A stretch of 64,000 nt of DNA from Mariniblastus fucicola (GTDB lineage: Bacteria; Planctomycetota; Planctomycetia; Pirellulales; Pirellulaceae). The stretch spans positions 4,402,001 to 4,466,000 of the forward strand of contig NZ_CP042912.1 in NCBI RefSeq assembly GCF_008087665.1, in the 5' to 3' direction. Positions 23,875-59,246 of the stretch are shown here, piece by piece. Both the position numbers and the translations under genes were made by a program. Position 1 is the stretch's first letter; each line of letters starts with the position of its first letter. The notes under the pieces are model-generated. The model was not told where the DNA came from. It saw only the letters and a program-made list of their open reading frames with translations, and made no database searches.

Positions 23875-23900
23875 GGTGGCATAGGCTTCCAGCCTGTGAT
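23875..23900. repeat. Dispersed palindromic repeat, variant A
   Basis: ggtggcataggcttccagcc followed by tgtgat. The same string recurs at 31158 and 48219, and inverted at 33060 and 48254. Confidence 0.85.
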
Positions 23901-40815: not shown

Positions 40816-40971
40816 GAAAGAATCTCCGGTGTTCGGTTGGTGTTGCTGTCTCGCTGACGACGAGACTACTCGGGTCACGATACGCAAAATCTCGCATCGG
40901 TACGTTGGGCACGGCTGCGCAGCTCTAGCGCCCAGAAGAATCCCCTATTTTGCCATCTTTTGCAGAATTGT

Positions 40972-43542: not shown

Positions 43543-46110
43543 ATGAAAGTTTACCCTGGAACATCGTTGCTGACGGGACGCATCCTTTCGATTGCTTTGC
43601 TTTTTTGCTTCAACACGTTTTCCATTGGCCAGGAACTGTCTGAAAGCAAACAGCTTTTCAGGCAAGGCAAATTCGAGACGGTCATTGAACTTGCGAACCA
43701 ATCTGACGAGTCCAATTCTTCTCGCAAGCAGGATTGGATTGTGCTCAAGAGCAGGGCTCAGCTGGCGACTGGAAAGTACGCCGACGCGAAGCTTACTGTC
43801 GAAGAAGGCCTGAAAGCGCTTCGCAACAACGTGCGAATCCGAGAGGTCGCGGCGGAAGTTTATCGCTTCAACCAGGACGAAGCGCGAGCTCGGGAACTGC
43901 AGACGGAAATTGGCGAACTATGGCAGCGCAGCAGCTGGCGATATCGCAACGTGGAAGACCTGATGGCGGTCGGGCGTTTTCTGATCTCCGATGGCGTCGA
44001 CCCGAAGACGATTCTGGATCAGTTGTACAAACCGGCGAGCGAGAAGTATCCGCAAAGTCCAGAAGTCGAACTGGCGATCGCGGAATTGGCACTGAGCAAA
44101 AATGACTATCAGTTGGCGGCCAAACATTTTCGAAACGCGATCAAGCTGGATGATTCCGATCCGGAATCGCATCTTGGTCTGGCGATGGCCTTTCGCCCCA
44201 GCGACGACACGATCGCATCGGCTTCGCTGAATCGGGTGCTGGAAATCAACCCGGACCACGTTGGGGCTCATTTGATTTTGATCGAGCAACATATCTCTGC
44301 CGAATCTTACGACGATGCGGAAAAGGCGATCGATAAAGTCCTGGCGGTGAATCCGCATCAGCCCGAAGCGTGGGCGTATAAGGCCGTGTTGGCTCATCTG
44401 TCCAGCAAACACGATGAAGAAGGCCGATGCCGCAGCGAAGCCTTAAAATACTGGAGGTCCAATCCGGAAGTCGATCATCTGATTGGTTTGCAGCTTTCGA
44501 AGAAATATCGTTTCACCGAAAGCGTCGAATATCAACGGCGTGCGTTGGTGATGGACGAGAACTACATTCCGGCCAAAATTCAGCTGGCCCATGATCTGTT
44601 GCGGCTTGGCCAGGAACTGGAAGGTTGGAAGCTTGCGGAAGAAGTTTTCGACGCGGATCAGTACAACGTCGTGGCCAACAATCTGGTTGCCCTTCGCGAT
44701 AACCTTGGCAAGTTCGCAACGCTCGAAGAAGACGGCTTTGTCGTGCGGATGGCTCAAAACGAAGCCGACATTTATGGTCAACAGGTTCTGGAGCTGTTGG
44801 TTGACGCGGAGAAAAAGCTGGCGGCCAAGTACGATGTCAAAATTCAGAAACCGGTTTTCATCGAGATCTTTCCGCGACAGCAGGACTTTGCGATTCGCAC
44901 GTTCAGCATGCCAGGCGGTGTTGGATTCCTGGGCGTCTGTTTCGGCCGAGTGATCACGATGAACAGCCCGGCGGCTCAGGGTTCAACGCTGACGAATTGG
45001 AAAAGCGTCCTGTGGCATGAGTTCTGTCATGTCGTGACGCTGCAGAAAACCAAAAACAAAATGCCGCGTTGGCTCAGCGAAGGCATCTCGGTTTACGAAG
45101 AACAACTCGCAGACGAAAGCTGGGGCGATCGCATGTCGCCCGAATATCGCGAGATGATTTTGGGCAAAGATCTGACTCCGGTCAGTCAACTTAGCAGCGC
45201 GTTTTTGAAAGCCAAATCGGCGATGCATCTTCAGTTTGCATATTTTGAATCATCGCTGGTGGTACGCTTTATCGTCGAGAAGTTCGGCGAAGAATCGCTT
45301 GTCGGCGTGCTTGATTCGATCGGCAAGGGCGTCCCGATCAACGATGCAATTTCGCGGCACGTCGGACCAATTGACTTGTTGGACAAACGCTTTGAAGAGT
45401 TCGTGACGGCCGCGGCAAAGGAATACGGTGAGAAGTTCGATTGGGAAAAGCCAGAGAAACCTTTTTCTGATGTCGCGTCGTGGAAGGCCTGGGTGGATGA
45501 TCATGAAAACAGCTTCTACGGACTGATTGGGCTGGCGGCGGCTCAACTGAAAGAATCACAGCCGGACGCTGCTTTGCAGACGGTGAAAACTTTCGAAGCC
45601 TTGCTGCCAGAAAATGCTCAGGAATCGGCGGTGGAAACGATCAAGGCGGGCGCGTATCACGAGCTACAGCAAGTCGAGAACGAAACCTTGGCGTTGGAGT
45701 CGGTTTTAACTCTTGATGCCAGCGAGATGGATGCTTGCATGCGGTTGCTGCAAATTCACACCGATGCCGATGACCTTGAAAATGTGAAACGGATGGCCCG
45801 ACTGCTGCAAGCGATCAACCCTTTGCTCAAGTCGTCGCATCGTTCACTGGCGATGGTGGCAGAGAAGGAAAACGATGACGAACTCGCGATTGAGTCGCTT
45901 TCAGCGCTCTCGACGATGGATCCGCTCGATCGAGCCGACACACATTATCGCCTGGCGATGGCCCAGTTTCGCCAGCAGGATTCTGCGGCGGCGAAGCGAA
46001 ATGTTTTGCTGGCGCTGGAGGCCGCACCGAGGTTTCGCGACGCGCACAAGCTGCTGTTGGAGATCGTGAAACGAAAGCCAGTTGATTTGAAGGAAGAGGA
46101 CTCGCAATGA
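43543..46110 (+). CDS. TPR-rich protein with gluzincin-like (HExxH) peptidase region
   Basis: An 855-residue exported protein, first gene of the long operon. From ATG 43543 the N-terminus is a signal peptide (ILSIALLFCFNTFSIGQ). TPR-like helices occupy residues 30-380 and again 690-840. Between them, at 410-600, is a peptidase MA-like region with VLWHEFCHVVTLQK, giving HExxH (His492, Glu493, His496), and the downstream third ligand in PRWLSEGISVYEEQ (Glu513). This arrangement suits a zinc metallopeptidase in the periplasm or on the surface. Its stop overlaps the start of the DUF4159 gene by four bases (ATGA), indicating translational coupling. Confidence 0.85.
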   Translation: MKVYPGTSLLTGRILSIALLFCFNTFSIGQELSESKQLFRQGKFETVIELANQSDESNSSRKQDWIVLKSRAQLATGKYADAKLTVEEGLKALRNNVRIREVAAEVYRFNQDEARARELQTEIGELWQRSSWRYRNVEDLMAVGRFLISDGVDPKTILDQLYKPASEKYPQSPEVELAIAELALSKNDYQLAAKHFRNAIKLDDSDPESHLGLAMAFRPSDDTIASASLNRVLEINPDHVGAHLILIEQHISAESYDDAEKAIDKVLAVNPHQPEAWAYKAVLAHLSSKHDEEGRCRSEALKYWRSNPEVDHLIGLQLSKKYRFTESVEYQRRALVMDENYIPAKIQLAHDLLRLGQELEGWKLAEEVFDADQYNVVANNLVALRDNLGKFATLEEDGFVVRMAQNEADIYGQQVLELLVDAEKKLAAKYDVKIQKPVFIEIFPRQQDFAIRTFSMPGGVGFLGVCFGRVITMNSPAAQGSTLTNWKSVLWHEFCHVVTLQKTKNKMPRWLSEGISVYEEQLADESWGDRMSPEYREMILGKDLTPVSQLSSAFLKAKSAMHLQFAYFESSLVVRFIVEKFGEESLVGVLDSIGKGVPINDAISRHVGPIDLLDKRFEEFVTAAAKEYGEKFDWEKPEKPFSDVASWKAWVDDHENSFYGLIGLAAAQLKESQPDAALQTVKTFEALLPENAQESAVETIKAGAYHELQQVENETLALESVLTLDASEMDACMRLLQIHTDADDLENVKRMARLLQAINPLLKSSHRSLAMVAEKENDDELAIESLSALSTMDPLDRADTHYRLAMAQFRQQDSAAAKRNVLLALEAAPRFRDAHKLLLEIVKRKPVDLKEEDSQ

Positions 46111-47078
46111 GATGGAATTCTGTTTTCGCAATTTTGTTGTTCGCGTTGTGCTTTGGTTTCGCTGCCCTGGCATTCCAAATGCAATCTGATCCCAGCCAAC
46201 CTGGGCGATCCGGAATCAGCGAAAAAACTGCGACGGCATCTTCGCTCACGTACGAAGCCAGCACCACAAACGACACAGCGGATTCAGCTGACGATCAGCT
46301 TGCCGCCAAGCCGTCCCCCCAGGACTTTCAGCGCGGTTCACGACGCTGGGGCGGGCGCCGACGAAGAGACCCCAACGACCGCGGTGGCGTTCCGCTTTGG
46401 AAAAATGAAGCCGCCGATCCTGGCGACGTGTTCACTTTCGTTCGAATTCAATACAACTCCTATCGAGGCCGCTACCGGTGGAACACGGACTATCCGGACG
46501 CTGACTTGAACCTCTCCTACCGACTGCAACAACTGACTTCGATCAAGACCGATCCAAACGGAAAGATTCTGCGGCTTACTGATGAAGACCTGTTCAAGTA
46601 TCCGTTCATCTACATTATCGAGCCCGGCGGCATGGCGTTGTCGGAAGACGAAGTCGTTGCCCTGCGCAGCTACCTCGAGCGCGGCGGCTTTTTGATGGTG
46701 GACGATTTTTGGGGGGAAGCTGAGTGGGATAATTTCGCTGGCGAACTCAAACGCGTTTTCCCCAACCGGCCAATCGAAGACATTCCGCTGGAACACGAAA
46801 TCTTCAACATCGTCTACAAGCTGAAAAAGAAACCGCTCATCCCCAGCGTGCATGCTTACCAAAGTGGAAACTGGACGGAGCGTTGGGACGCTCAGGAGCC
46901 GCACTACCGTTGCGTCAAAGACGACAGCGGACGACTGATGACGGTCATTTGCCACAACACGGACCTTGGCGATGGCTGGGAGCAGGAAGGAACGGACTCG
47001 GGTTATTTCGAAGCTTACTCGGAACCCTACGCGTATCCTTTGGGAATCAATATCGTGACGTATGCGATGACGCACTAG
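46107..47078 (+). CDS. DUF4159 family protein, exported
   Basis: A 323-residue protein that overlaps the preceding stop. It has an N-terminal hydrophobic segment (VFAILLFALCFGFAALAF), then 80 disordered polar residues ending in GRRRRDPNDRGG, and a conserved C-terminal domain from about 105: FTFVRIQYNSYRGRYRW, FKYPFIYIIEPGGMALSEDE, FLMVDDFWGEAEWDNFAGEL and YRCVKDDSGRLMTVICHNTD. DUF4159 has a glutamine-amidotransferase-like flavodoxin fold without known catalysis and is typical of MoxR-DUF58 loci. The gene is 99 bases before moxR in the same direction. Confidence 0.87.
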   Translation: MRWNSVFAILLFALCFGFAALAFQMQSDPSQPGRSGISEKTATASSLTYEASTTNDTADSADDQLAAKPSPQDFQRGSRRWGGRRRRDPNDRGGVPLWKNEAADPGDVFTFVRIQYNSYRGRYRWNTDYPDADLNLSYRLQQLTSIKTDPNGKILRLTDEDLFKYPFIYIIEPGGMALSEDEVVALRSYLERGGFLMVDDFWGEAEWDNFAGELKRVFPNRPIEDIPLEHEIFNIVYKLKKKPLIPSVHAYQSGNWTERWDAQEPHYRCVKDDSGRLMTVICHNTDLGDGWEQEGTDSGYFEAYSEPYAYPLGINIVTYAMTH

Positions 47079-47177
47079 TTGCATCGCAGGTGGCAGAAAC
47101 TTCCAGAACGATTCGGTGTGATTCACCGGTCGGAAGCTCATGCCGCCCAAAAACTAAACACTCATCACGGAGACGCT

Positions 47178-48185
47178 GTGACAAACTCTGAAACCTTTGA
47201 AGCTGACCGGCAAGCCGTCGAACTGATTCGCGAAGGCCGCGACAGGATTCATGCGGAACTCGACAAAGTCATCGTGGGGCAAAAGGAAGTCATCAATCAG
47301 CTGCTGATCAGCCTCTTCGCTGGCGGCAACTGCTTGCTGACCGGAGCCCCTGGCCTGGCGAAAACGTTGCTGGTCCGTAGCATCGCCGAGATCTTTGACC
47401 TTCAGTTCAACCGTATCCAGTTCACGCCTGACTTGATGCCGGCGGACATTACCGGAACCGAGATCCTCGAAGACACCCTCGAAGGCCGCAAGCTGCAGTT
47501 CGTGCACGGTCCGATCTTTGCCAACGTCATTTTGGCCGACGAGATCAACCGTACTCCTCCCAAAACGCAGGCCGCGTTGCTGGAAGCGATGCAGGAACAT
47601 CAAGTCACCGCTGCGGGGAAACGATACAAACTTCCCGAACCGTTCTTTGTTCTTGCGACGCAGAATCCAATCGAGATGGAAGGCACCTATCCGCTGCCGG
47701 AAGCTCAGCTGGACCGTTTCATGTTCAACGTGCATATGGACTATTTGCCGATCGCGGACGAAGTCGAAGTCGTGCAGCGCACCACGTCGTCTGGCGGAGA
47801 AAAAATCGGCAAGCTGTTTACCGCCGAAGACGTGCTCAAATTCCACAGCACCGTTCGAAAGGTTCCTGTGGCCAAGGAACTGGTTCAGTACGCGGTCGAG
47901 TTGGTTGACGCCAGTCGTCCGAACCGCGAGTCCACACCTGGATTCGTGAACGATTGGGTGAACTGGGGAGCAGGGATTCGCGGTGCTCAAAATCTGGTGC
48001 TGGGCGCGAAAGCCAGAGCCCTGTTTGAAGGCCGATCACACGTGAACCTGGACGATATCCAATCGCTGGTTCTGCCAACGCTTCGTCATCGCATTTTGCC
48101 GGGATATCGTGCTCAGGCAGAGAACATCTCGGTGGAGATGATCATCGACCGGATCGTGGAAAGCGTCAGCCGACCTAATGTTTAA
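47178..48185 (+). CDS. MoxR-family AAA+ ATPase
   Basis: A 335-residue cytoplasmic ATPase. The GTG at 47178 follows GGAG at five bases and is chosen over the longer TTG frame at 47079. It contains the Walker A motif LLTGAPGLAKTLLVRSI, the MoxR-typical FTPDLMPADITGTEILED, Walker B VILADEINRTPPKTQAALLE, the sensor region FFVLATQNPIEMEGTYPLPE and the C-terminal lid RPNRESTPGFVNDWVNWGAG. MoxR proteins act as chaperones that load partners onto vWA proteins. DUF58 and BatA-like vWA genes follow, the common arrangement. Confidence 0.95.
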   Translation: MTNSETFEADRQAVELIREGRDRIHAELDKVIVGQKEVINQLLISLFAGGNCLLTGAPGLAKTLLVRSIAEIFDLQFNRIQFTPDLMPADITGTEILEDTLEGRKLQFVHGPIFANVILADEINRTPPKTQAALLEAMQEHQVTAAGKRYKLPEPFFVLATQNPIEMEGTYPLPEAQLDRFMFNVHMDYLPIADEVEVVQRTTSSGGEKIGKLFTAEDVLKFHSTVRKVPVAKELVQYAVELVDASRPNRESTPGFVNDWVNWGAGIRGAQNLVLGAKARALFEGRSHVNLDDIQSLVLPTLRHRILPGYRAQAENISVEMIIDRIVESVSRPNV

Positions 48186-48218
48186 GTCAACTTTAGCCCA
48201 ATGAGGATAAGAGTTTCG

Positions 48219-48277
48219 GGTGGCATAGGCTTCCAGCCTGTGATCTGTATGTCCACAGGCTGGAAGCCTATGCCACC
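48219..48277. repeat. Perfect 24-bp inverted repeat made of two variant A copies inside the operon
   Basis: Left arm ggtggcataggcttccagcc(tgtg) at 48219-48242 and right arm (cacaggctggaagcc...) at 48254-48277 are exact reverse complements around an 11-base loop. It lies between the MoxR stop and the DUF58 start, so the transcript would carry a strong hairpin there. Confidence 0.9.
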
Positions 48278-48301
48278 TTACATGCAAAATTCGAACGTCA
48301 C

Positions 48302-49309
48302 ATGAGCAACTCAATCACGAATCCGAAACCGCAATCGAGCAGCGCCAGTTCAAAGGCCGGCTCGCCGCGCGATTCGTACGTTGACACCGCGGCGATTATG
48401 AAGCTGAAGAATCTTGAGCTCCGCGCCCGTTTGATCGTGGAAGGTTTTATGTCAGGCCTTCATCGCAGCCCCTACCACGGTTTCTCGGTGGAGTTCACTG
48501 ACTATCGCGAGTACTCGCCTGGCGATGACCTGCGACATCTCGACTGGAAGTTACTCGCTCGACGAGACCGAAAGTACATCAAGCGGTTCGAAGATGAAAC
48601 GAATTTGCGATGTCATTTGCTGGTCGACCTGAGCCGTTCGATGAGCTTCGGCTCCGGCGACGTTGAGAAATCCGAGTACGCAAAAACCTTGGCGGCATCG
48701 CTGGCGTACTTTCTTTTTCGACAACGCGACGCCGTGGGACTGGTTACTTTCGACGAAGCCATCGATGAGGTTTTGCCCGCACGATTTCGACCGGGACATC
48801 TGCGACATCTGCTCGGGGCTCTTGAACGATCGACAGGCGGAAGCAGCACCGACATTGGACGCCCGCTGGAACAGGTCGCCGCGACGATTCAGAAACGCGG
48901 GCTGATCGTGCTGGTGTCTGACTTTCTCGTTCCAATCGAATCAATCAGGAAGCCGTTGAGTTATTTGCGAGCGATCGGCCACGACATTGTCTTGCTGCGG
49001 GTACTCGATCCGGCAGAAGTGGAATTCTCGTTTAGCCAGGCGTCGATGTTTGTGGATTTGGAAACCGGTCGCGAGATTTATGTCGACCCCGGAGCGGTGG
49101 CCAAGGACTACCAAAAACGGTTCAACGATCATCGCTCGGAACTGAAAACGTTTTGCGACGGGAACGGAATTGATTTCTTCGAAGCACTGACTTCCGATCC
49201 GGTGCAAACTTCGTTGTTCAACTTCCTTCAAGCCCGTGCCCAACAGGCGCAACGCGGTCAACTGACTGCTGCGAATCCAAATCAACGTGGCGGAGGAGGC
49301 TCACAATGA
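48302..49309 (+). CDS. DUF58 vWA-like protein
   Basis: A 335-residue soluble protein. It has the DUF58 signature GFSVEFTDYREYSPGDDLRH with LDWKLLARRDRKYIKRFEDE, then a vWA-type fold: LLVDLSRSMSFGSG at about residues 104-117, with DxSxS providing the metal-ion site, and TGGSSTDIG later. The C-terminus is Gln and Gly rich. DUF58 proteins pair with MoxR ATPases in almost all bacteria that have them, the pair sometimes being linked to stress or cell-envelope functions. Its stop overlaps the next start (ATGA). Confidence 0.94.
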   Translation: MSNSITNPKPQSSSASSKAGSPRDSYVDTAAIMKLKNLELRARLIVEGFMSGLHRSPYHGFSVEFTDYREYSPGDDLRHLDWKLLARRDRKYIKRFEDETNLRCHLLVDLSRSMSFGSGDVEKSEYAKTLAASLAYFLFRQRDAVGLVTFDEAIDEVLPARFRPGHLRHLLGALERSTGGSSTDIGRPLEQVAATIQKRGLIVLVSDFLVPIESIRKPLSYLRAIGHDIVLLRVLDPAEVEFSFSQASMFVDLETGREIYVDPGAVAKDYQKRFNDHRSELKTFCDGNGIDFFEALTSDPVQTSLFNFLQARAQQAQRGQLTAANPNQRGGGGSQ

Positions 49310-51414
49310 GTGCACTCGCCTGGCTGTTTGGACTTGGGTTTCTCGCTCTCGCCGGACCACTGCTGTTCCACTTGATTCGCCGCACGCCAAAAGGCGAAAT
49401 TCCGTTTAGCTCGCTGATGTTTCTGCGTGCCACGCCGCCTACGTTGACGCGTCGCAGTCGCCTGGACAACCTGTTGCTGTTGGCGCTGCGGATGGCTGCC
49501 GTTGCGTTGATCGCCGCGGCATTTATGCGTCCGTTTTTCAACAACAATGTGAAGCTGGATTTCGCCGACGTGCCCGGCCGGAAAACTGCGGTCCTGATTG
49601 ACACCAGTGCCAGCATGAAACGTGCGGACTTGTGGGCTCAGGCAACGAAGAAGCTAAAATCCGTTGTCGACGAAGCCGAAGCCAACGACGAGATCGCGGT
49701 TTTCACTTTCGATTCAAAGCTGGAAAAACGAGTCGGCTATTTGAAAAAGTCTGACGCTGCGAATTTGTTGCAGCAGTTTGAATCGCTGCAAATTCAACCC
49801 GGCTGGAACCAGTCGAAACTCGGCGACGCTCTCGTTGGCATCGCCAATCGATTGCTCGAAAGCCAATCGACTCCGGACGACGAGGATGAAAGCAGTGAGG
49901 TGAGTCTGTCGGATTCCAAGCTGCAAGTCGTGGTGATTTCAGATATGCAAACCGGTTCTTCGACGTCGGCGTTGCAGAGTTTTCGCTGGCCCGAACAGAT
50001 TAAAGTTCGATTCGATCCCGTCGCAACTGACCTCGGCACCAATGCGACACTGGAGTTGCTGCCAGTTGATGAAAACGACCCGGAGCAGATCCGCGAAAAC
50101 GTGTTGGTGCGAAATTCGAAAGGTTCGACTTCGGACCAGTTTTCTGTTTCGTGGGAGAACAGTTCATTGCCGGCGACTCCGTTTCTCGTTCCGGCCGGTT
50201 CCAGCAAGATCCTGCGCGTTGCCAGAGACGCGAATTCGCTTTCGTCCGACAAGCTGATGCTGACCGGCGACGATGCGGAGTACGACAATCAGTTTTTCGC
50301 GATTCCACCGCTCAGCCAGACGGTTAACATTCGCTACGTCGGCGATGAATCGGAAAACGATCCCGAAGGAATGCTGTTCTACTTCAAACGTTCGCTGATC
50401 GAGACGCCGGCGGTGTCTTACGAAGTCGCCCAGCAACGGACGACATCCGAGTCAAACGAACCGGGCATGGATCCGGAATTCATCGTCATCTCCCGAGCAG
50501 TGTCGACAGAAGAAACCGAATCGATCGACAAACTTTTGAAACGTGGCGTAACTTTATTTGTTGTCCTGTCGGACCCTGCCATGCTCGATTCAACCCGGAC
50601 GTGGACCGGCGTCGCATCGATGGAAGAAGCCAGCGAACCTGACAAAGACGATTACGCAATGTTGGGCAGCATTGACTTCTCCCATCCGGTGTTCGCACCG
50701 TTTTCGGGACCACGATTCAATGATTTCACGGAGATTCGATTCTGGGATTTCATTCGTCCGAACTTGGCAGACAACGTGCAAGTGCTGGCTCGTTTTGATA
50801 ACGACACGCCGGCGTTGTGGCATCAAATGGCCCACGACAAAAGCGATATCTACGTGCTGGGAACCGGATGGCAGCCAGAGAAAAGCCAACTGGCTCTTTC
50901 AAGCAAGTTTCTGCCGTTGATGATGCGTATGATTGAACTGGCGACGAAGACTGAACCGGTTGCGGCCAACAACATTGTCGGCGATTCGATCAAGCCACCG
51001 CTGGGCTACGACCGTTTGGTTTGGCCTGATGGCAAAGTTGAGTTTTTGGAAGGTTCGTCGACGCAAACACTGAACTTGCCGGGTGTCTATGCGTTCAACA
51101 GTTCGTCCGATTCGACGCTTGCCGACGTGCGGGTCGCGGTGAATGTGGATCCTGCGGAAAGCCAGATTAACACGATGCCCGTTGATCAAATTTCTGCTCT
51201 GGGCGTCGAAGTTGGCACACACGACACCTCGCAGGAAGAAGTCGAACGCCAGCGTCAGTTGCGAGACGTTGAACTTGAGAATCGACAGAAACTATGGAAG
51301 TGGTTGGTGCTCGGAGCCATCGGGCTGATCATCGCCGAATCGTGGTTGGCTGGAAGAACGGATCGAACCAGCCGCAATTTTGAATCTGCGGAACAAGGAA
51401 CAGCGAATGAGTAA
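49306..51414 (+). CDS. BatA-like membrane vWA protein
   Basis: A 702-residue membrane protein. The N-terminal 75 residues match the BatA N-terminal domain: LAWLFGLGFLALAGPLLFHL, RRTPKGEIPFSSLMFLRATP, a second helix at LLLALRMAAVALIAAAFM. A vWA domain begins near residue 94 with KTAVLIDTSASMKRADLW, keeping the DxSxS metal site. The middle has beta-sandwich stretches, and a final helix at about 672-690 (WLVLGAIGLIIAESWL) anchors the C-terminus. It is coupled to DUF58 upstream and to the coiled-coil gene downstream by overlaps. Confidence 0.92.
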   Translation: MSALAWLFGLGFLALAGPLLFHLIRRTPKGEIPFSSLMFLRATPPTLTRRSRLDNLLLLALRMAAVALIAAAFMRPFFNNNVKLDFADVPGRKTAVLIDTSASMKRADLWAQATKKLKSVVDEAEANDEIAVFTFDSKLEKRVGYLKKSDAANLLQQFESLQIQPGWNQSKLGDALVGIANRLLESQSTPDDEDESSEVSLSDSKLQVVVISDMQTGSSTSALQSFRWPEQIKVRFDPVATDLGTNATLELLPVDENDPEQIRENVLVRNSKGSTSDQFSVSWENSSLPATPFLVPAGSSKILRVARDANSLSSDKLMLTGDDAEYDNQFFAIPPLSQTVNIRYVGDESENDPEGMLFYFKRSLIETPAVSYEVAQQRTTSESNEPGMDPEFIVISRAVSTEETESIDKLLKRGVTLFVVLSDPAMLDSTRTWTGVASMEEASEPDKDDYAMLGSIDFSHPVFAPFSGPRFNDFTEIRFWDFIRPNLADNVQVLARFDNDTPALWHQMAHDKSDIYVLGTGWQPEKSQLALSSKFLPLMMRMIELATKTEPVAANNIVGDSIKPPLGYDRLVWPDGKVEFLEGSSTQTLNLPGVYAFNSSSDSTLADVRVAVNVDPAESQINTMPVDQISALGVEVGTHDTSQEEVERQRQLRDVELENRQKLWKWLVLGAIGLIIAESWLAGRTDRTSRNFESAEQGTANE

Positions 51415-54400
51415 CGCCCAACCGCCCATCAAAATCGATTTGCTGAATCAAATCCGACCGGTGCTTCGCCGCGAACGTTGTCGACGCGTGGTCATGTCGT
51501 TGGCGTTCACCTGGATTCTGGTCGCGCTCGTTGGGTTGATTGTTTTCGCGTTCAATCGATCGGCACAGTCGGCGCTCGACCCGTTTCTTCCCTCTGCGTG
51601 GATTTGGATTGCGGGCCTCGGCGGAGTCGGAACGCTTGTCGCGATTCTGTTTTCGCTTTTTTCGATGCCCAACGCGGAATCGATGGCACACCGAATCGAA
51701 GAAGGATTTCCGGAGCTCGATTCTGTTTTGCTGACGGCTATCGAGCAGCAACCCGACCAGGAAGAAGGTCTGAGTTTTTTCCAGTATGACGTCATTCAAA
51801 AGGCGATCCATCACAGCTTCCAGGAAAAGTGGGCCTCCGTGGTTCCCGGCTGGAAAATCTTCTCATCGAGTTTCGGAGCGATCACTGGACTCGTCGGAAT
51901 CGTCGCAGCGGGTTTGATGTTGTTCCTGATGCCGCCGCCAGAATTCGACAGCTCGATTCATATGTTCAGCGACATCGAGAAACCGGTTGAGCTGGATCTT
52001 TCATGCAGTGTTCAGCCGGGGAACACGGAGATCGAACGCGGCACGAATTTGCTGGTACTGGCCGAGTTCGCAAACGATTCGCCGCCGGAAGCCGAATTGC
52101 ATTTCACAAAGCAAGCCGGAGGTGACAGCGAGGAACGAGTCGTTTCGATGACCCGAAGTTTGGACGATCCGGTTTTCGCGACACGCATCATGCAGGTCGA
52201 TCAACCGTTGACGTATCGCGTTGAATTTGCAGATGAGACTTCGCAGGAGTACACCGTCAGCGTGTTTGATTTTCCACGCATGCTGCGAACGGATGTCGAA
52301 CTGAGCTATCCCAAGTACACCAACCTCCCGAACAAGGTTCTGCAGGACACACGTCGGTTCTCAGCGGTCGTCGGCACCGATGCGAAACTGCGTTTCAATC
52401 TGAACAAGGAAGTGACTTCCGCGACGCTGCGTCCCGAAGGCGAAGGCGGCGAATCGTTGCAGCTTTCGCAAAATGGAGAGAATCCGCTTCTGTGGGAAAC
52501 GGATCTGGTGATTGAACGATCAGCCAAATATCGGCTGCACTTGCTCGACGCCCAGCAGCGTGAGAACAAGTCGCCGCCTCGGCTGACGATCAAGGCGTTG
52601 GAGAATCAACCGCCGGAGTTGAAATTGCTCGAACCGGCTCGTGACCTGGCGGTTTCCGCGCTCGAAGAGGTCTCCATGAGTGCTTCTGTGTGGGACGATT
52701 TCGGCATCGCGAAAACGGGATTGGCCTGGTCAATCGGAGGTGGTGACATTCGCGAACTGGAACTTGCCAACAATCAGAGCGGCAAGCAAAAACACGTCGT
52801 GGATCATCTGCTGGAACTGGAATCGCTCAACGCCGAACCGGATCAACTGGTCGCGTGGCACTTTTGGGCGGAAGACATCGGGCCCGATGGCGAATCGCGC
52901 CGCACCGAGAGCGACATGTTCTTCGCGGAAGTTCGACGTTTTGAAGAGATCTTTTTCCAGGCTCAAGGACAGCAAGGTCAACAGCAGCAGCAACAACAAC
53001 AGCAAGGCCAGCAGGGTCCGAGTGCGGAACAGGCGATGGAGTTGGCGGAACTGCAAAAGGAAATCATCAACGCGGTCTGGCGAGTCATTCGTCGCGAGAA
53101 AGGTCCGTCGCTTTCGGATGCGTTTGATTCAGACGTCGAACTACTGGCCGAATCGCAACGCTCGGCGATCACGCAGGTCGATGAACTGGCCGAAGAGCTG
53201 AACGATGAACTGGCCAAATCACTGGTCGACGAATTGAAGTCTTTCATGAACGATTCCGTCGACAAACTCCAATCGGCTCGGCAGGAACCTGCGGCCGCGC
53301 CGCTGACCAAAGCCATCCGCAGCCAACAGTCGGCCTGGCAAACGCTGCTGAAGATGCGTGCTCGCGAAGTTCAGGTGCAACAGTCGCAGCAGCAACAACA
53401 GCAAAGTTCGTCTTCGAGTAGTTCGCAGGCATCGCGCCAACGACAGCTTCAGCAAATGGAACTGACCGAACAGGAAGACCGCTACGAACAGGAACGACTG
53501 GCCCAGGAAGAAAGCGAACAGGCTCAGGAGCAACGCGAGAACCGCCAGATCCTTAGCCGGCTGAAGGAACTTGCCCAGCGACAAAACGATTTGAACAAGC
53601 GAGTCAAAGAATTGCAGTCGGCTCTCGAAGAAGCTGAAACAGAACAGGAGAAAGAGGAGCTGGAGAAACAACTGAAGCGGCTTGAAGAGGAACAGCAACA
53701 GGTGCTTCGTGATACCGATGAGCTTCAGGAGCGGATGGAGGATTCACAGAGCCAGCAATCGCAGACCGAGCAAATGGAGCAACTGCAACAGGCTCGCGAA
53801 AATGTGCAGCGATCGTCTGAGGCGCTGCAGGAAGGCGACCTTTCCAAAGCCGCGACGGAGGGAACGCGGGCCGAGCGCGAATTGAAAGACCTTCGTGATG
53901 AGTTTCAGGAAAAGACCGCTGGTCAGTTCAACGACCAGATGCGGCAGATGCGAAATCAGGCTCAGGATTTGGAAAACGAACAGAAGGAACTTGCCCAACA
54001 GGTCAAGGACGAAGAGCAGAATTCGCAGGAAGGCAATCGACTCGACGGCGAAGACAAACGTCAACAACTGGTGGACGGAATCAAGAAAGGACAGCAGGAA
54101 GTCGAACAGCTTCGGGAGGAAATTAAACAGACGATCGAGGAGGCTGACGAACTTGAACCGTTGCTTGCCGACGAACTTTACGAAACGTATCGCGAAACCG
54201 AACAGTCACGACCGGATCGGGCGCTACAGTATTCCGCCGATGCGGTGGAACGAGGTTTCGATGACGATGCCAAAATTGTTCATGATGTCGCGATGAAGGG
54301 GATCGAAGAACTGCGAGAGGGAATCGATCGAGCGGCGGAACGTGTGCTTGGCGACGAGACGGAAGCTTTGAAAGCGGCTCGCGATACGATCAAAAACCTG

Positions 54401-55246
54401 TCCCGTGAACTGGATGATGAGATTGAGCGAAATGATCCGCGGGCTGAATCGGAGTCGGCGGAGCAGGGCAGTGAACGTGGCCAAGGCCAGGGCGATCGGA
54501 ACCAACCTGACGGTGAGGATTCAGAAGCAAATCAACGCCGTGGCGAGCGTGGCGAAGGAGATAGCGAAGGCCAACAGCCTGGTGAGCAGCAGCGTGGCGA
54601 AGCGCAACCCGGCCAACCTTCTCAAGGAGAGCAGAACTCCGATAACCCGGGACAAGGATCGGGGCAGAGCGAATCCGGCGGCGAGGAAAATGAAAACGGC
54701 GAGAGGCCTGAAAACGGAAACGAAGAAAATCCGGAAGGTCAGGAAGGTGCTGAACCTCAAAACGGTCGAGGCCAGGGCCAACCTGGCGGCGGATCTCCCG
54801 ATGGCAACCGACAGGCTGCGAATCGCGGCGGCAATCGACTCGACAGCGAACCCAATGAAGGAAACCGGTTGGGTGGAATCGCAGGTCCAACGGATGCCCG
54901 CAACTTTGCTCCGATCACCGGCGACGACTTTCGCGAGTGGTCGGATCGACTTCGCGACGTTGAGGAGATGATTGCCGATCCGGATTTGAGAGCTGACGCG
55001 GCCCGGATTCGGGATCAAGCCAAAGCTATTCGCAAAGATCTGCAACGTCACTCGCCCGAGCCTGATTGGGAAAAAATCAAGATGGAATTGGCAGAGCCGC
55101 TGGCTGAGTTGCAGAGCCGCGTGACTCAGGAGATTCTGCGACGCGATCCGAAAAACGCACTCGTTCCGCTCAACCGCGAACCTGTCCCGACTCGCTACGA
55201 AAGTGCCGTCCGCAAGTATTACGAAACGTTGGGGACCGGTCAGTGA
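51407..55246 (+). CDS. Giant coiled-coil membrane protein (DUF4175-like)
   Basis: A 1279-residue protein from ATG 51407, overlapping the vWA stop. Three hydrophobic helices near residues 28-50, 63-87 and 151-176 form the membrane part. Extracytoplasmic Ig-like strands follow (LSYPKYTNLPNKVLQDTRRF). A pure Gln run at about residues 525-535, then 400 residues of Gln/Glu-rich coiled coil (ELAQRQNDLNKRVKELQSAL, KQLKRLEEEQQQVLRDTDEL), an unstructured Gly, Gln, Asn and Glu region at about 1015-1150 and a final acidic helical domain. The layout resembles DUF4175 proteins of other bacteria, which also sit in BatA loci. It probably forms a periplasmic scaffold (inference). Confidence 0.72.
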   Translation: MSNAQPPIKIDLLNQIRPVLRRERCRRVVMSLAFTWILVALVGLIVFAFNRSAQSALDPFLPSAWIWIAGLGGVGTLVAILFSLFSMPNAESMAHRIEEGFPELDSVLLTAIEQQPDQEEGLSFFQYDVIQKAIHHSFQEKWASVVPGWKIFSSSFGAITGLVGIVAAGLMLFLMPPPEFDSSIHMFSDIEKPVELDLSCSVQPGNTEIERGTNLLVLAEFANDSPPEAELHFTKQAGGDSEERVVSMTRSLDDPVFATRIMQVDQPLTYRVEFADETSQEYTVSVFDFPRMLRTDVELSYPKYTNLPNKVLQDTRRFSAVVGTDAKLRFNLNKEVTSATLRPEGEGGESLQLSQNGENPLLWETDLVIERSAKYRLHLLDAQQRENKSPPRLTIKALENQPPELKLLEPARDLAVSALEEVSMSASVWDDFGIAKTGLAWSIGGGDIRELELANNQSGKQKHVVDHLLELESLNAEPDQLVAWHFWAEDIGPDGESRRTESDMFFAEVRRFEEIFFQAQGQQGQQQQQQQQQGQQGPSAEQAMELAELQKEIINAVWRVIRREKGPSLSDAFDSDVELLAESQRSAITQVDELAEELNDELAKSLVDELKSFMNDSVDKLQSARQEPAAAPLTKAIRSQQSAWQTLLKMRAREVQVQQSQQQQQQSSSSSSSQASRQRQLQQMELTEQEDRYEQERLAQEESEQAQEQRENRQILSRLKELAQRQNDLNKRVKELQSALEEAETEQEKEELEKQLKRLEEEQQQVLRDTDELQERMEDSQSQQSQTEQMEQLQQARENVQRSSEALQEGDLSKAATEGTRAERELKDLRDEFQEKTAGQFNDQMRQMRNQAQDLENEQKELAQQVKDEEQNSQEGNRLDGEDKRQQLVDGIKKGQQEVEQLREEIKQTIEEADELEPLLADELYETYRETEQSRPDRALQYSADAVERGFDDDAKIVHDVAMKGIEELREGIDRAAERVLGDETEALKAARDTIKNLSRELDDEIERNDPRAESESAEQGSERGQGQGDRNQPDGEDSEANQRRGERGEGDSEGQQPGEQQRGEAQPGQPSQGEQNSDNPGQGSGQSESGGEENENGERPENGNEENPEGQEGAEPQNGRGQGQPGGGSPDGNRQAANRGGNRLDSEPNEGNRLGGIAGPTDARNFAPITGDDFREWSDRLRDVEEMIADPDLRADAARIRDQAKAIRKDLQRHSPEPDWEKIKMELAEPLAELQSRVTQEILRRDPKNALVPLNREPVPTRYESAVRKYYETLGTGQ

Positions 55247-57597
55247 CAGATTCTTTGTTGGCGTTGATGCCAGATACCTGGAACGCGATGCATTGGTGGC
55301 TGCCGGCGTTGATTGCCGCGATGCTGGCCATCCCGGTCGTGTTCTGGTCGAATTTTTCAAAGCAGATTGGCACAGGGCGAGGCTTCTTTCTGTCGTCTTT
55401 GAAGGCGATCGCGATCGGCCTGTTGGTGCTGTGCCTGTTGGAACCGATGAGCCAGTTTGAACAGGCGAAACCGGGAGCGAACTCGCTGATCGTGATGGCG
55501 GATGCCAGTCAAAGCCTGGACGTGAAGGATTCGGGACGTTCCGATTCCAGAGCCAAAGAGCTTTCGCGATTGCTGGACCAGGACGCGACGTGGCTGAATC
55601 AGCTGGAGCGGAATTTCGAACTTCGCCGGTACACGTTTGATGAACGATCGACCAACGTCGTCGACTTTCAGGACTATGCGGCGAACGGCCGAGCCAGCGA
55701 GATTTTGAATTCGATGTCGACCGTGGGACGCCGTGTCGCTGGCAAACCGACGGCGGGAATCATTTTGTTGACTGATGGAAATGAGTCGACCGATCCTGAT
55801 CTGGCGGACTTTGACTGGTCGCAACTCCCTCCGGTTTATCCAGTCGTGATCGGAGACAGCCAACCGCTTCGTGACCTGTCGATCACCAACGTCACGACTT
55901 CGCAAACCAATTTCGAATCGGCACCGGTCACGATAAAGGTCGAACTGGTGGCCCAAAAATTCTCCGGAAAAACGGTCACGGTACAGCTGGCAGGAGAGGA
56001 CGACATAGTCATCGAGTCTCAGGAAGTGCGGCGACTGGAAGACGGAAAATCGTTCGCCGTTCGCTTCAAACTCAAACCTGAAAACCGCGGCGTGAACGTG
56101 TTTGAGGTTCGGGCTTTCGAAAAAGGCACTTCCGCCGACGACGAAAACGGCGAAGCAACTTTGGTCAACAATCGACGTCTGGTCATTGTGGACCGCGGCA
56201 AAGGCCCGTTTCGCGTGCTGTACATTGCCGGGCGCCCCAACTGGGAGTACAAGTTCATGCGTCGCGCGTTGGCGGACGACAGTGAGCTGGATCTGGTTGG
56301 GTTGCTGCGAGTGGCGAACAAGGAACCGAAGTTTACGTTTCGCAGTCGCGATGGCGAAACGACCAATCCGCTGTTTCGCGGTTTCGGCAATCAGGAAGAC
56401 GACACGGCGGAGCAGTACGATGAGGCCGTGATGATTCGGCTGGATACTCGTGACGAAGTTGAACTTCGCGACGGTTTCCCCAAGGACGCTGCAGGCATGT
56501 TCGAATACGACGCGATCATCATCGACGATCTGGAAGCCTCCTTTTTTACGCAGGATCAGAAAACGTTGCTCTCGCAGTTCGTGTCCTTGCGTGGCGGCGG
56601 GCTGATGATGCTTGGCGGTGTCGCGACCTTCGCTCGCGGTGGCTACGACCGGACTCCGATCGGCGAATCGCTGCCGGTCTATCTGGATCAACGTTCGCCA
56701 ACGCCAGAGAACATCGACTATCGGCTGGACTTGACGCGTGAAGGCTGGGTCCAGCCATGGATTCGCATCGAACCGACACGGGAGGACGAATTGAAACGGC
56801 TGGAAACCATGCCGCCGTTTCAAACGCTTAGCCGTTCGCGATCGATCAAACCGGGAGCCACGATTCTGGCCAGCGCCACCGGTTCGGACGACGAAACGCA
56901 TCCGGCGCTGGTCGTGCAGCGTTTTGGAAACGGCCGCACGGCTGCGATGCTGATCGGTGATCTTTGGCGTTGGAAGCTGCAGTCCGAGAACGAGAACGAA
57001 GACCTGAACAAGGCCTGGCGTCAGACGTTGCGGTGGCTGGTTTCGGAGACTCCGCGTCGCGTCGAGGTACTGGCCGAACCCGATTTGTCTCAGTCACAAT
57101 TGACCAGGATTCGCGTCGACATTCGAGATGAAGAATTCAAACCGCAGCTCAACGCGGAACTGGAACTGAAGGTTATCACGCCGTCGCAAAAGGAAATTGC
57201 GATTGCCTCACAGCAGGATTCGCGAAAAGTCGGCAGCTATGTGGCTGAGTTTTCGTCGCGAGAACCGGGAGCTTATCGCGTCGTCGCGTCGGCAAAGTCT
57301 CCGGAAGGCGAGTTGATCGAAATGCGAGAAACCGGTTGGGTTTCCGATCCGGCGGTTGCCGAGTTTGAGTCTCTTCAGCCGAATCGTGATTTCCTGCGAC
57401 AGATTGCAAATGAAACCGGCGGCGAACTGGTTGAGGTCGCGGATCTGGAGTCATTCGCAAGTGATTTTGACGCCAGGAAAGTTCCTGTTTCGGAAACGAA
57501 GTCCGTTCCATGGTGGCATCGCTGGTCAATTTTCGCGGCGGCGATCGGGTTGCTGTTGGCTGAATGGGGCGCAAGACGAATGTGGGGGCTGGCGTGA
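55243..57597 (+). CDS. Membrane protein with vWA and glutamine-amidotransferase-like regions
   Basis: 784 residues, GTG start overlapping the previous stop (GTGA). Two N-terminal helices (WWLPALIAAMLAIPVVFW and SLKAIAIGLLVLCLLEPM), then a vWA-like segment with LIVMADASQSLDVK, where the metal site is degenerate, and GIILLTDGNESTDPDLAD. From about 310, FRVLYIAGRPNWEYKFMRRA, YDAIIIDDLEASFFTQDQKT and LRGGGLMMLGGVATFARGGY match class I glutamine-amidotransferase-like folds found in BatA-type proteins, without a catalytic Cys. One C-terminal helix (IFAAAIGLLLAEWGARRM). Probably a structural or regulatory partner of the other vWA proteins. Confidence 0.82.
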   Translation: MTDSLLALMPDTWNAMHWWLPALIAAMLAIPVVFWSNFSKQIGTGRGFFLSSLKAIAIGLLVLCLLEPMSQFEQAKPGANSLIVMADASQSLDVKDSGRSDSRAKELSRLLDQDATWLNQLERNFELRRYTFDERSTNVVDFQDYAANGRASEILNSMSTVGRRVAGKPTAGIILLTDGNESTDPDLADFDWSQLPPVYPVVIGDSQPLRDLSITNVTTSQTNFESAPVTIKVELVAQKFSGKTVTVQLAGEDDIVIESQEVRRLEDGKSFAVRFKLKPENRGVNVFEVRAFEKGTSADDENGEATLVNNRRLVIVDRGKGPFRVLYIAGRPNWEYKFMRRALADDSELDLVGLLRVANKEPKFTFRSRDGETTNPLFRGFGNQEDDTAEQYDEAVMIRLDTRDEVELRDGFPKDAAGMFEYDAIIIDDLEASFFTQDQKTLLSQFVSLRGGGLMMLGGVATFARGGYDRTPIGESLPVYLDQRSPTPENIDYRLDLTREGWVQPWIRIEPTREDELKRLETMPPFQTLSRSRSIKPGATILASATGSDDETHPALVVQRFGNGRTAAMLIGDLWRWKLQSENENEDLNKAWRQTLRWLVSETPRRVEVLAEPDLSQSQLTRIRVDIRDEEFKPQLNAELELKVITPSQKEIAIASQQDSRKVGSYVAEFSSREPGAYRVVASAKSPEGELIEMRETGWVSDPAVAEFESLQPNRDFLRQIANETGGELVEVADLESFASDFDARKVPVSETKSVPWWHRWSIFAAAIGLLLAEWGARRMWGLA

Positions 57598-58691
57598 TGG
57601 AACGAGTGTTTGGAACTGAGTTGGCGAAACACATCAAGAACGCATTGCGTCCCCGTTTGCGTTCTGTGCCTGTACGGTTGTCGAATTTCCGTCTCCGAAA
57701 CAAATTGAACATCGCGTTGATGATGCCAGGCGTCGTCCTGTCTCTCAGCCTGCTGTCTGCCGGATCGTTGCTCGCACAGAGCAAACAAAAGGAAGCTGAC
57801 GATTCTGACCAGGCAGTGATCCTTGTCGTCGGCGCCGAAGGAAACGACGAATACAAACAGCAGTTTGCTGCATGGGCGGAAGCCTGGGAGCGAGCGGCCG
57901 CCGATACCAGCTTGACCGTGATCGGGTTGAACGACGCAAGGAGTGCGTCGAAATCACAATTGCAAACGGCGATCGAAGAATCAGCCGGCGACGAAAATCT
58001 ACAGGAAGTTTGGCTGGTGATGATCGGCCATGGAACTTTTGACGGGAAGCGAGCCAAATTCAACTTGCACGGCCCCGACATCCAGGCGGATGAACTCAAG
58101 CGCTGGCTGGCTCCGCTGAAACAGCGATTGGTGATCCTGAACTGTACCTCCAGCAGCAGCCCCTTCATCAATTCGCTAAGTGGTCAAAATCGAATTATCG
58201 TCACGGCGACTCGCGACGGATACGAATACAACTTCGCCCGTTTTGGGCAATTCCTCGCGGCGTCGATTGATGATCCTGCGATTGATCTGGACAAAGATGG
58301 ACAGACATCGGTGTTGGAAGCGTTTTGCGCGGCCAGTCGCGGAGTCGACGATTTCTACCAACAGGAAAATCGACTCGTGACCGAACACGCGTTGCTTGAC
58401 GACAACGGAGACTCGAAAGGAACGCCCGCGACCTGGTTCGATGGAGTTCGTGCGACTCGCCGCCCCAAAGAAGGAATGCCAGACGGCTTGCTCGCCAATC
58501 AGGTTTTTTTGAATCGCCGCGGTGAAGAAAATTCGCTAACCTCGGAAGATCGTAAAACGCGTGACCGGTTGGAGCTGGAACTGGAGCAAATTCGTTTGCA
58601 AAAGGAAACGATGGACGAGTCCGAGTACCTGTTGAAAATCGAACCGGTGCTGATCAAGTTGGCTGAGTTGTATGCGAAGAAAGGCGAGTAG
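57597..58691 (+). CDS. Caspase/legumain-fold (C13-like) protein with EF-hand-like loop
   Basis: 364 residues, last gene of the operon, ATG overlapping the previous stop by one base (TGATG). Residues 37-60 form a signal peptide or anchor after an unusually long basic N-terminus. The domain from 70 contains QEVWLVMIGHGTFDGKRAKF with candidate His145, then VILNCTSSSSPFINSLSG with candidate Cys183, and IIVTATRDGYEYNFARFGQF. This His and Cys arrangement fits the caspase/C13 hemoglobinase fold. Directly after, DLDKDGQTSVLE (about residues 230-241) matches the 12-residue EF-hand calcium loop pattern. The last 60 residues are charged and helical. Proteolytic activity is inferred, not shown. Confidence 0.78.
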   Translation: MERVFGTELAKHIKNALRPRLRSVPVRLSNFRLRNKLNIALMMPGVVLSLSLLSAGSLLAQSKQKEADDSDQAVILVVGAEGNDEYKQQFAAWAEAWERAAADTSLTVIGLNDARSASKSQLQTAIEESAGDENLQEVWLVMIGHGTFDGKRAKFNLHGPDIQADELKRWLAPLKQRLVILNCTSSSSPFINSLSGQNRIIVTATRDGYEYNFARFGQFLAASIDDPAIDLDKDGQTSVLEAFCAASRGVDDFYQQENRLVTEHALLDDNGDSKGTPATWFDGVRATRRPKEGMPDGLLANQVFLNRRGEENSLTSEDRKTRDRLELELEQIRLQKETMDESEYLLKIEPVLIKLAELYAKKGE

Positions 58692-58763: not shown

Positions 58764-59246
58764 ATGAATAAAATCGCGATACTTGTTGACGTCCAAAACA
58801 TCTATTACACGACACGGCAGGCGTTCAGCCGCAAGTTCAACTATCGTGCGTTCTGGTCCACCGTTACGGAAGGCCGTGAAGTGATTGCCGCATACGCTTA
58901 CGCGATTGAGAGCCGTGACGGCGGAAAACAGTTCGGCTTTCAACAAATCCTCCGCGACATTGGTTTCGAAGTGAAACTCAAGCCCTACATTCAGCGTAGC
59001 GACGGAAGTGCGAAAGGCGATTGGGACGTTGGGATCACGTTGGACATGGTCGAATTGGCGGAGCAAGTCGACACCGTTGTACTTGCATCGGGCGACGGCG
59101 ACTTTGATCTGGCATTGCAGCGAATCAGACAGCGTTTCGACGTGACGGCCGAAGTCTATGGCGTCGAACAGTTGACGGCGGGAACTCTGATTCGATCGGC
59201 GACCCGGTACGTGCCAATTGAAGATGATTTGTTGATGCCGCAATAG
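58764..59246 (+). CDS. NYN-domain protein (PIN-like nuclease)
   Basis: 160 residues from ATG 58764. The NYN (LabA/DUF88-like) acidic motifs are visible: KIAILVDVQNIYYTTRQAF at the N-terminus, GSAKGDWDVGITLDMVELA in the middle, and TVVLASGDGDFDLALQRIRQ. These aspartates bind metal in the PIN-like RNase fold. Likely a cytoplasmic RNA-processing or quality-control nuclease; some relatives act on RNA. It lies 72 bases after the operon and may be co-transcribed by read-through. It is convergent with the sulfotransferase gene. Confidence 0.9.
   Translation: MNKIAILVDVQNIYYTTRQAFSRKFNYRAFWSTVTEGREVIAAYAYAIESRDGGKQFGFQQILRDIGFEVKLKPYIQRSDGSAKGDWDVGITLDMVELAEQVDTVVLASGDGDFDLALQRIRQRFDVTAEVYGVEQLTAGTLIRSATRYVPIEDDLLMPQ

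Follow-up and report, generated by a model that had tools for sequence, protein, structure and literature searches.

MoxR-type AAA+ ATPases and von Willebrand factor A (vWA) proteins form modules that are widespread and whose clients are mostly unknown. In the planctomycete Mariniblastus fucicola, one such module lies between two genes for protease-like proteins, which raises the question of whether these two genes belong to the module and, if so, what the whole set might do. The DNA analysed (the window) is a stretch of 64,000 nucleotides, positions 4402001-4466000 of one 6.57 Mb contig (genome G000), and eight same-strand genes, here called A to H, fill window positions 43543-58691. They encode a tetratricopeptide repeat (TPR) protein with a metallopeptidase domain (A), a DUF4159 protein (B), a MoxR-type ATPase (C), a DUF58 protein (D), a BatA-type membrane protein (E), a long DUF4175-like protein (F), a membrane protein with vWA-like and GATase1-like regions (G) and a clan-CD, C13/caspase-like protein (H). 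We find that the operon is real and that its gene order is strongly conserved. We tentatively propose, at a little less than an even chance, that in Planctomycetota and Verrucomicrobiota A-H are an old, single MoxR/vWA machine reaching across the envelope, in which the cytosolic ATPase would be coupled to periplasmic domains and one metallopeptidase.

Gene content and order are conserved in two phyla

Among 37 loci compared, the order A-B-C-D-E-F-G-H was identical in all 19 that bear A. L044-L046 are ordinary paralogous modules, and the remaining loci without A end at contig edges or are split. The order was kept in L048 and L064, where some genes are split into two frames, and the full A-H order was also present in L157, which comes from G205, a record titled Verrucomicrobiia that is also the source of L074. 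The sequence-only reading had placed both terminal genes in one module with the genes between them; a check of relatives' genomes for non-conservation of the two gave the opposite result.

Co-occurrence of the genes was near all-or-none. A strong H match (at least 247 bits) was detected in 25 of 60 relatives, and a strong G match (at least 578 bits) in exactly the same 25. With a threshold of E ≤1e-60 (all matches at least 612 bits), A was found in 23 of these 25 genomes and in none of the 35 others; in the two G+H genomes without A (G016 and G050), the loci are cut by contig ends before A. A sample of 147 genomes from the phylum, sharing G000 and G052 with the set of 60, gave a similar picture: the 10 genomes with a strong H match (at least 239 bits) were also the 10 with a strong G match (at least 459 bits), nine of them had a strong A (at least 613 bits) as well, and in the tenth (G178) the locus sits on a 5,965-base contig that starts inside F. 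H-like proteins of at most 72 bits were present in seven other genomes of the 147. In the phylum of G205, strong H was found in 2 of 145 genomes (312 and 258 bits, one of them G205 itself) and weak H in two more.

A scan of named genomes with an H alignment returned at least 563 relatives, and the counts that follow come from the best 80 of these. Their record titles place all of them in groups of Planctomycetota or Verrucomicrobiota, except L085, titled only "bacterium"; named-strain carriers include Singulisphaera sp. GP187 (L139) and Aquisphaera insulae JC669 (L140). By a strict rule, G adjoins H in 69 of the 74 loci with more than 1.5 kb upstream. Three loci (L099, L120 and L139) have G on the same strand upstream of H and failed the distance rule, and L125 and L145 have no G within the locus. 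D-E-F-G-H is complete in 36 of the 48 loci with more than 9 kb upstream of H; the order D-C-E-F-G-H shown by five loci arises from the sorting of frames that are open where the locus begins. In all 32 H-bearing genomes tried, picked from the best 80, A was detected at E ≤1e-40, one of the matches being a contig-edge fragment.

A quick FastTree tree of G+H (71 rows, with groups set by record titles) requires two changes each for Planctomycetota and Verrucomicrobiota. Three rows titled Candidatus Kuenenia or Akkermansia muciniphila (L071, L110 and L128) also have the operon and group in the tree with other rows from planctomycetes or Verrucomicrobiota; their titles may be wrong.

A and H persist together when the operon is broken

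In nine broken operons that we inspected, A and H were both kept in all nine. G033, a single contig, has A-B at one site and F-G-H at another, and in G058 A is likewise separate from F-G-H. A-B-C, G and H lie on three contigs in G040. A lies away from G-H in G081 (one contig), G180, G217 and G221, while G220 and G235 keep A-B-C-D-E together with H on another contig. We also noticed that in CP070678 (Phycisphaerales, G226) the operon is seemingly broken inside gene E (L158 7913-8740; L115 2498-4036), which splits A to part of E from part of E to H; this may be a rearrangement or an assembly fault.

A quick rpoB tree covering 59 of the 60 genomes requires 15 changes in H presence, nine of them forced by well-supported branches, and 14 in A presence. 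Of nine independent pairs on this tree, a mean of 8.3 had A and H in agreement and none had them opposed (median p 0.008, range 0.004-0.016). The operon has a fixed composition in members of two phyla, repeated gain or loss, broken cases and an apparently intact peptidase, and these properties make the targets of BatA/DUF58/DUF4159 modules directly testable.

Operon layout and flanking genes

The sequence-only reading had described a coupled operon running in one direction. All five of the overlaps that it named are present (A/B at 46107-46110, D/E at 49306-49309, E/F at 51407-51414, F/G at 55243-55246, and G/H by one base at 57597), but two junctions are uncoupled: 99 bp separate B from the likely GTG start of the MoxR gene at 47178, and 116 bp separate C from D. 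The C/D gap holds a palindrome resembling repetitive extragenic palindromic (REP) elements (48218-48278, no strand assigned), a genome-wide repeat that does not belong to the conserved operon. It forms a 25-pair stem with an outermost G-U pair (-54 kcal/mol, z -10). With up to 2 mismatches allowed, the genome has 121 copies of its arm and a control gave 0; with up to 3, the window has five matches where 0 are expected, arms lying also at 23877, 31160 and 33059. The exact arm was not found in 230 loci compared. The palindrome looks like an insertion special to the window genome because the C/D anchor distance there (236) exceeds that in the other 19 loci (80-231, median 113).

No larger operon emerged from the flanks. 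We clustered 442 open frames downstream of H from 80 loci and 95 frames upstream of A from 19 loci, many of which have short flanks; no downstream cluster occurred in more than nine loci, the largest lying at scattered places, and no upstream cluster occurred in more than four. For the flanks covered, a larger operon was accordingly rejected. Gene I (58764-59246), which directly follows H, encodes an NYN-domain (LabA-like) protein and, among the 37 loci, was found elsewhere just in L047, the nearest relative; the NYN matches of a defence scan fall on this neighbour. On the minus strand at 39484-40887 lies a gene for a TPR protein with what appear by eye to be two stretches like the RpoA C-terminal domain.

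Motifs point to one ATPase and one apparently intact peptidase

Gene A (43543-46110, plus strand, as are all eight) encodes a probably exported protein with TPR and Peptidase_MA_2 (gluzincin) matches in Pfam, the latter at E 1e-14 and 55.3 bits against a cut-off of 32.4. H492, E493 and H496 of the HExxH motif, the SEGIS block and E513, E519 and E520, downstream candidates for the Glu ligand, are invariant in 20 of 20 sequences. A is predicted to be a peptidase and, besides C, is the only protein of the set with an apparently intact enzyme motif. In G102 and G121 (L039 and L040, one genus), the A match contains one TAA, yet A is one open frame; this is possibly the match end.

Gene B (46107-47078) encodes a DUF4159 protein (E 3.3e-52), exported or anchored as judged by hydrophobicity. 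Gene C (47178-48185, likely GTG start with GGAG upstream) encodes a probably cytosolic MoxR-type AAA+ ATPase. It matches AAA_3/MoxR at E 1.1e-62 and 210 bits and also bpMoxR, far lower, at 45.3 bits (cut-off 27). Its Walker A (GAPGLAKT) and Walker B (LADEINR) motifs are conserved in 20 of 20 sequences, and the nearest solved sequence is 2r44 (E 2.8e-82).

Metal ion-dependent adhesion site (MIDAS) motifs recur in D, E and G. Gene D (48302-49309) encodes a probably cytosolic vWA-type DUF58 protein (E 9.4e-50, 169.2 bits against a cut-off of 23.4) with the MIDAS motif DxSxS in 21 of 21 sequences; G000 has 12 DUF58 loci and one H. The product of gene E (49306-51414) is a membrane protein that matches BatA (47.7 bits against 25.9), VWA_2 and two_anch (61.2 against 23.05), with a MIDAS in 21 of 21. 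Gene F (51407-55246) encodes a coiled-coil-like protein of 1279 residues with three hydrophobic segments and a partial DUF4175 match of 19.5 bits, below the cut-off of 27.3. A loop at about residues 85-155 of F has invariant E98, P102, L104 and L108, with Glu98 present in 25 of 25 sequences, and is predicted to be cytosolic. Gene G (55243-57597) encodes a membrane protein with a vWA-like MIDAS in 33 of 34 sequences and a GATase1_like domain (42.6 bits, cut-off 27). At any column of the GATase-like region, Cys is present in at most 3 of the 34 sequences, so the nucleophilic Cys of class I glutamine amidotransferases is not conserved there.

The hydrophobicity pattern of the orthologues fits the envelope location that had been suggested from the window alone. 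In A, 17 of 20 sequences have a single hydrophobic segment at the N terminus, one has two and two have none. B has such a segment in all 20 and H in 28 of 34; none was found in C (20 of 20, before position 30) or D (21 of 21). Two N-terminal segments are present in E in the 21 untruncated of 23 sequences, 20 of which also have a C-terminal one. F has three segments in 21 of 26 untruncated sequences, and G has two in 32 of 34 and a C-terminal one in 18 of 34. By the positive-inside rule, C and D are predicted to be cytosolic and A, B and H to be exported, while E, F and G would cross the inner membrane and expose large regions to the periplasm.

H is probably a pseudopeptidase

Gene H (57597-58691) encodes a probably exported, putative clan-CD protein with an EF-hand-like loop. 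The window H matches no Pfam family, C13 included, and comparison with solved structures by sequence gave no useful match. Among H members, the C13 profile gave weak matches to 14 of 63 (best E 0.011). A divergent relative, L161, matches C13 at 28.1 bits (cut-off 22.8) and the H profile at E 4.9e-27. His145, Ser187, Asp230, Asp232, Ser238, Glu241, Asp269 and Asp272 are invariant in 81 of 81 H sequences, and the invariant EF-hand-like acidic loops look calcium-binding.

No Cys at a candidate nucleophile column was similarly conserved. Column 183 has Cys in 58 of 81 sequences, the other 23 carrying Thr, Ser, Ala, Asn or Met; in the first H set, Cys183 was lost in 4 of 34, and its state changes seven times on the G+H tree. 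Column 184 has Ala, Thr, Ser or Gly and never Cys (n=81), column 185 has Ser in 77 and Ala in 4 and never Cys, and column 186 has Cys in 2 of 81. The Cys of L161 aligns to Ser185 without gaps, and that of L232, a C13 protein from the phylum, aligns to column 183 in a weak match (E 0.093). We conclude that H is probably a pseudopeptidase because no Cys is conserved at either candidate nucleophile column. Less probably, H could use a Ser nucleophile or be active in members that bear Cys183; as a Cys peptidase active throughout the family it is disfavoured, a conserved Cys not having been found. Of the two protease-like proteins seen in the window, then, A keeps its HExxH...SEGIS signature in 20 of 20 sequences, but H has no conserved Cys where a nucleophile would be expected.

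We took 13 further loci around weak H-like matches, and nine of them have the H-like gene within a different MoxR module. L159-L162 have the order C-C-D-E-F-G-(B)-H, with two MoxR genes in tandem, and L163, which starts at a contig edge within C, shows this order too. L165 has the order C-D-E-F-G-H-B, and its H-like protein is without the histidine. In L167, L168 and L171, H stands before C and some partners are missing.

A possible trans-envelope machine and its rivals

In the machine that we tentatively favour, the MoxR ring C and the cytosolic vWA adaptor D would engage the cytosolic loops of E-F-G, by analogy with NorQ/NorD, where a MoxR ring and a vWA adaptor, whose MIDAS contacts an acidic surface of the membrane target, carry out ATP-driven remodelling (PMC9976466). 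The membrane proteins could then relay the remodelling to the vWA, DUF4175-like, GATase-like and DUF4159 domains on the periplasmic side. Together with H, a calcium-loop pseudopeptidase that may serve as a peptide-binding or gating subunit, these domains would hold envelope clients while the clients undergo assembly or quality control, and A, the one apparently intact peptidase, would trim or remove them. This picture builds on gene content and order, near all-or-none co-occurrence, the hydrophobicity pattern, conserved motifs and the H-like genes in nine other MoxR modules; localisation, contacts, transfer of force, clients and calcium binding are inferred. A more specific version, which we consider unlikely, is trans-envelope degradation or quality control: the cytosolic AAA+ ring would, by way of the membrane vWA proteins, drive a periplasmic metallopeptidase that lacks local ATP, with a calcium-sensing pseudo-caspase as receptor or gate. 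If this is true, motor and protease stand on opposite sides of the inner membrane.

Several observations weigh against a single coupled machine. The unit is absent from 35 of 60 relatives and is therefore dispensable. Seven other genomes in the sample of 147 have A-like proteins of 208-236 bits but neither strong G nor strong H, and an H-like gene stands alone in 4 of the 13 further loci (L164, L166, L169 and L170). The motif pattern of the F loop was found in 0 of 11 F-paralogue frames. The nucleophile column of H differs with the alignment, the Cys of L166 falling at 185 by MAFFT and at 183 by the profile. A Leptospira mutant lacking every bat gene is reported to have no growth, morphology or oxidative-stress phenotype (PMC3557215). 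Finally, A and H usually lie close and one deletion can remove both, so their joint presence in intact operons counts for less than that in broken ones, which carry most weight.

The same possibility of joint loss speaks for a reading of A and H as hitchhikers beside a standard MoxR module, and the repeat in the C/D gap of the window could be read in that direction too. We regard this as extremely improbable: the order is the same in two phyla, A and H are both kept where they lie far apart, for example in G033 and G081, and the gene order, the broken operons, the detection of A in 32 of 32 genomes and the rpoB pairs all contradict it. There is a real if minor chance that A-H are an envelope-integrity module of the Rhizobium cmdA-D type, with A mostly a TPR scaffold, H structural and proteolysis not the main output. 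Papers citing the work on that operon (PMC5700661, PMC3893208) describe effects on morphology and on the integrity of envelope or membrane. Modules of MoxR, DUF58, BatA and GATase-like genes that lack H and any A match above 33 bits do exist (L044-L046), two of them (L044 and L046) also holding DUF4159 and F, and the missing conserved Cys nucleophiles of H and G fit a structural role. A scaffold, however, has no need of HExxH and SEGIS residues that are invariant in 20 of 20 sequences, and the retention of A and H in the nine broken operons also speaks against such a module.

Invariant acidic loops in H that look calcium-binding would suit a chaperone for enzyme maturation that supplies periplasmic or membrane enzymes with a metal, perhaps calcium, as the methanol-dehydrogenase mox genes or NorQD do, and MoxR/vWA couples are described as inserting metal cofactors (PMC9976466, PMC7159879, PMC3893208). 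We find this improbable, since no neighbouring gene recurs in more than 9 of 80 loci downstream or 4 of 19 upstream and the conserved metallopeptidase A is left unexplained. Less probable again is a conflict (immunity) system, either like the MoxR-vWA ternary systems or like a cluster that protects against rival bacteria. The patchy presence of the operon on the rpoB tree would fit, as would published parallels: MoxR-vWA systems include caspase-like domains, about 70% of those in effector position being inactive (PMC7159879), and the Pseudomonas cluster PA4317-23, which encodes a MoxR ATPase and a vWA protein, is listed among antagonism-defence pathways (PMC8926400). Yet a PADLOC defence scan of A-H gave weak partial matches to C alone (best E 6.8e-5), a VMAP, iSTAND, FtsH or propeller partner was not found by Pfam or PADLOC, the gene content is fixed with no variable effector slot seen, and the G+H tree needs just two changes for each of the two phyla.

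Comparison with known systems

The core of the operon is of the known MoxR/DUF58/BatA kind; its extension by A and H to a fixed order of eight genes shared by two phyla was not found in the open-licence papers searched, among which no title or abstract listed describes the eight-gene set. This agrees with the earlier statement that no characterised function was known for the combination. The four-gene operon RL3499-RL3502 (cmdA-D) of Rhizobium leguminosarum, which we take to hold DUF58, DUF4159 and GATase-like genes, is not known to carry a gene for a TPR metallopeptidase or a caspase-like protein. According to papers that cite the original work, it is a MoxR operon that affects envelope and morphology. 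FtsZ-like/vWA operons (PMC2875224) were set aside as a parallel, there being no MoxR in that text.

The Bat operon of Bacteroides and spirochaetes likewise combines a BatA-type vWA membrane protein, DUF58, MoxR and a TPR protein (PMC5700661). The BatD family was not found among the matches of A-I (Pfam at E ≤1; a second profile scan at E ≤0.1), and in its place A-H has DUF4159, DUF4175-like, GATase-like, metallopeptidase and clan-CD proteins. Acinetobacter AdvA, a cell-division protein, is a membrane protein with a DUF4175 region (PMC7481262), whereas F matches DUF4175 only partly and below the cut-off.

H resembles the Peptidase C13/caspase-like proteins of clan CD in its invariant His, and its relative L161 passes the C13 cut-off; in contrast, the window H has neither a Pfam match nor a conserved Cys nucleophile, and the L165 relative is without the His. 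MoxR-vWA ternary conflict systems (Kaur et al. 2020) also unite MoxR and vWA proteins with caspase-like domains that are often inactive (PMC7159879). Their third components were not found in A-I, and here the caspase-like protein is separate and probably exported. NorQ/NorD of Paracoccus denitrificans shares a MoxR AAA+ protein and a MIDAS-bearing vWA protein that act on a membrane protein (PMC9976466); compared with that two-protein system, which loads iron into one enzyme, DUF58 would here replace NorD, with six proteins added.

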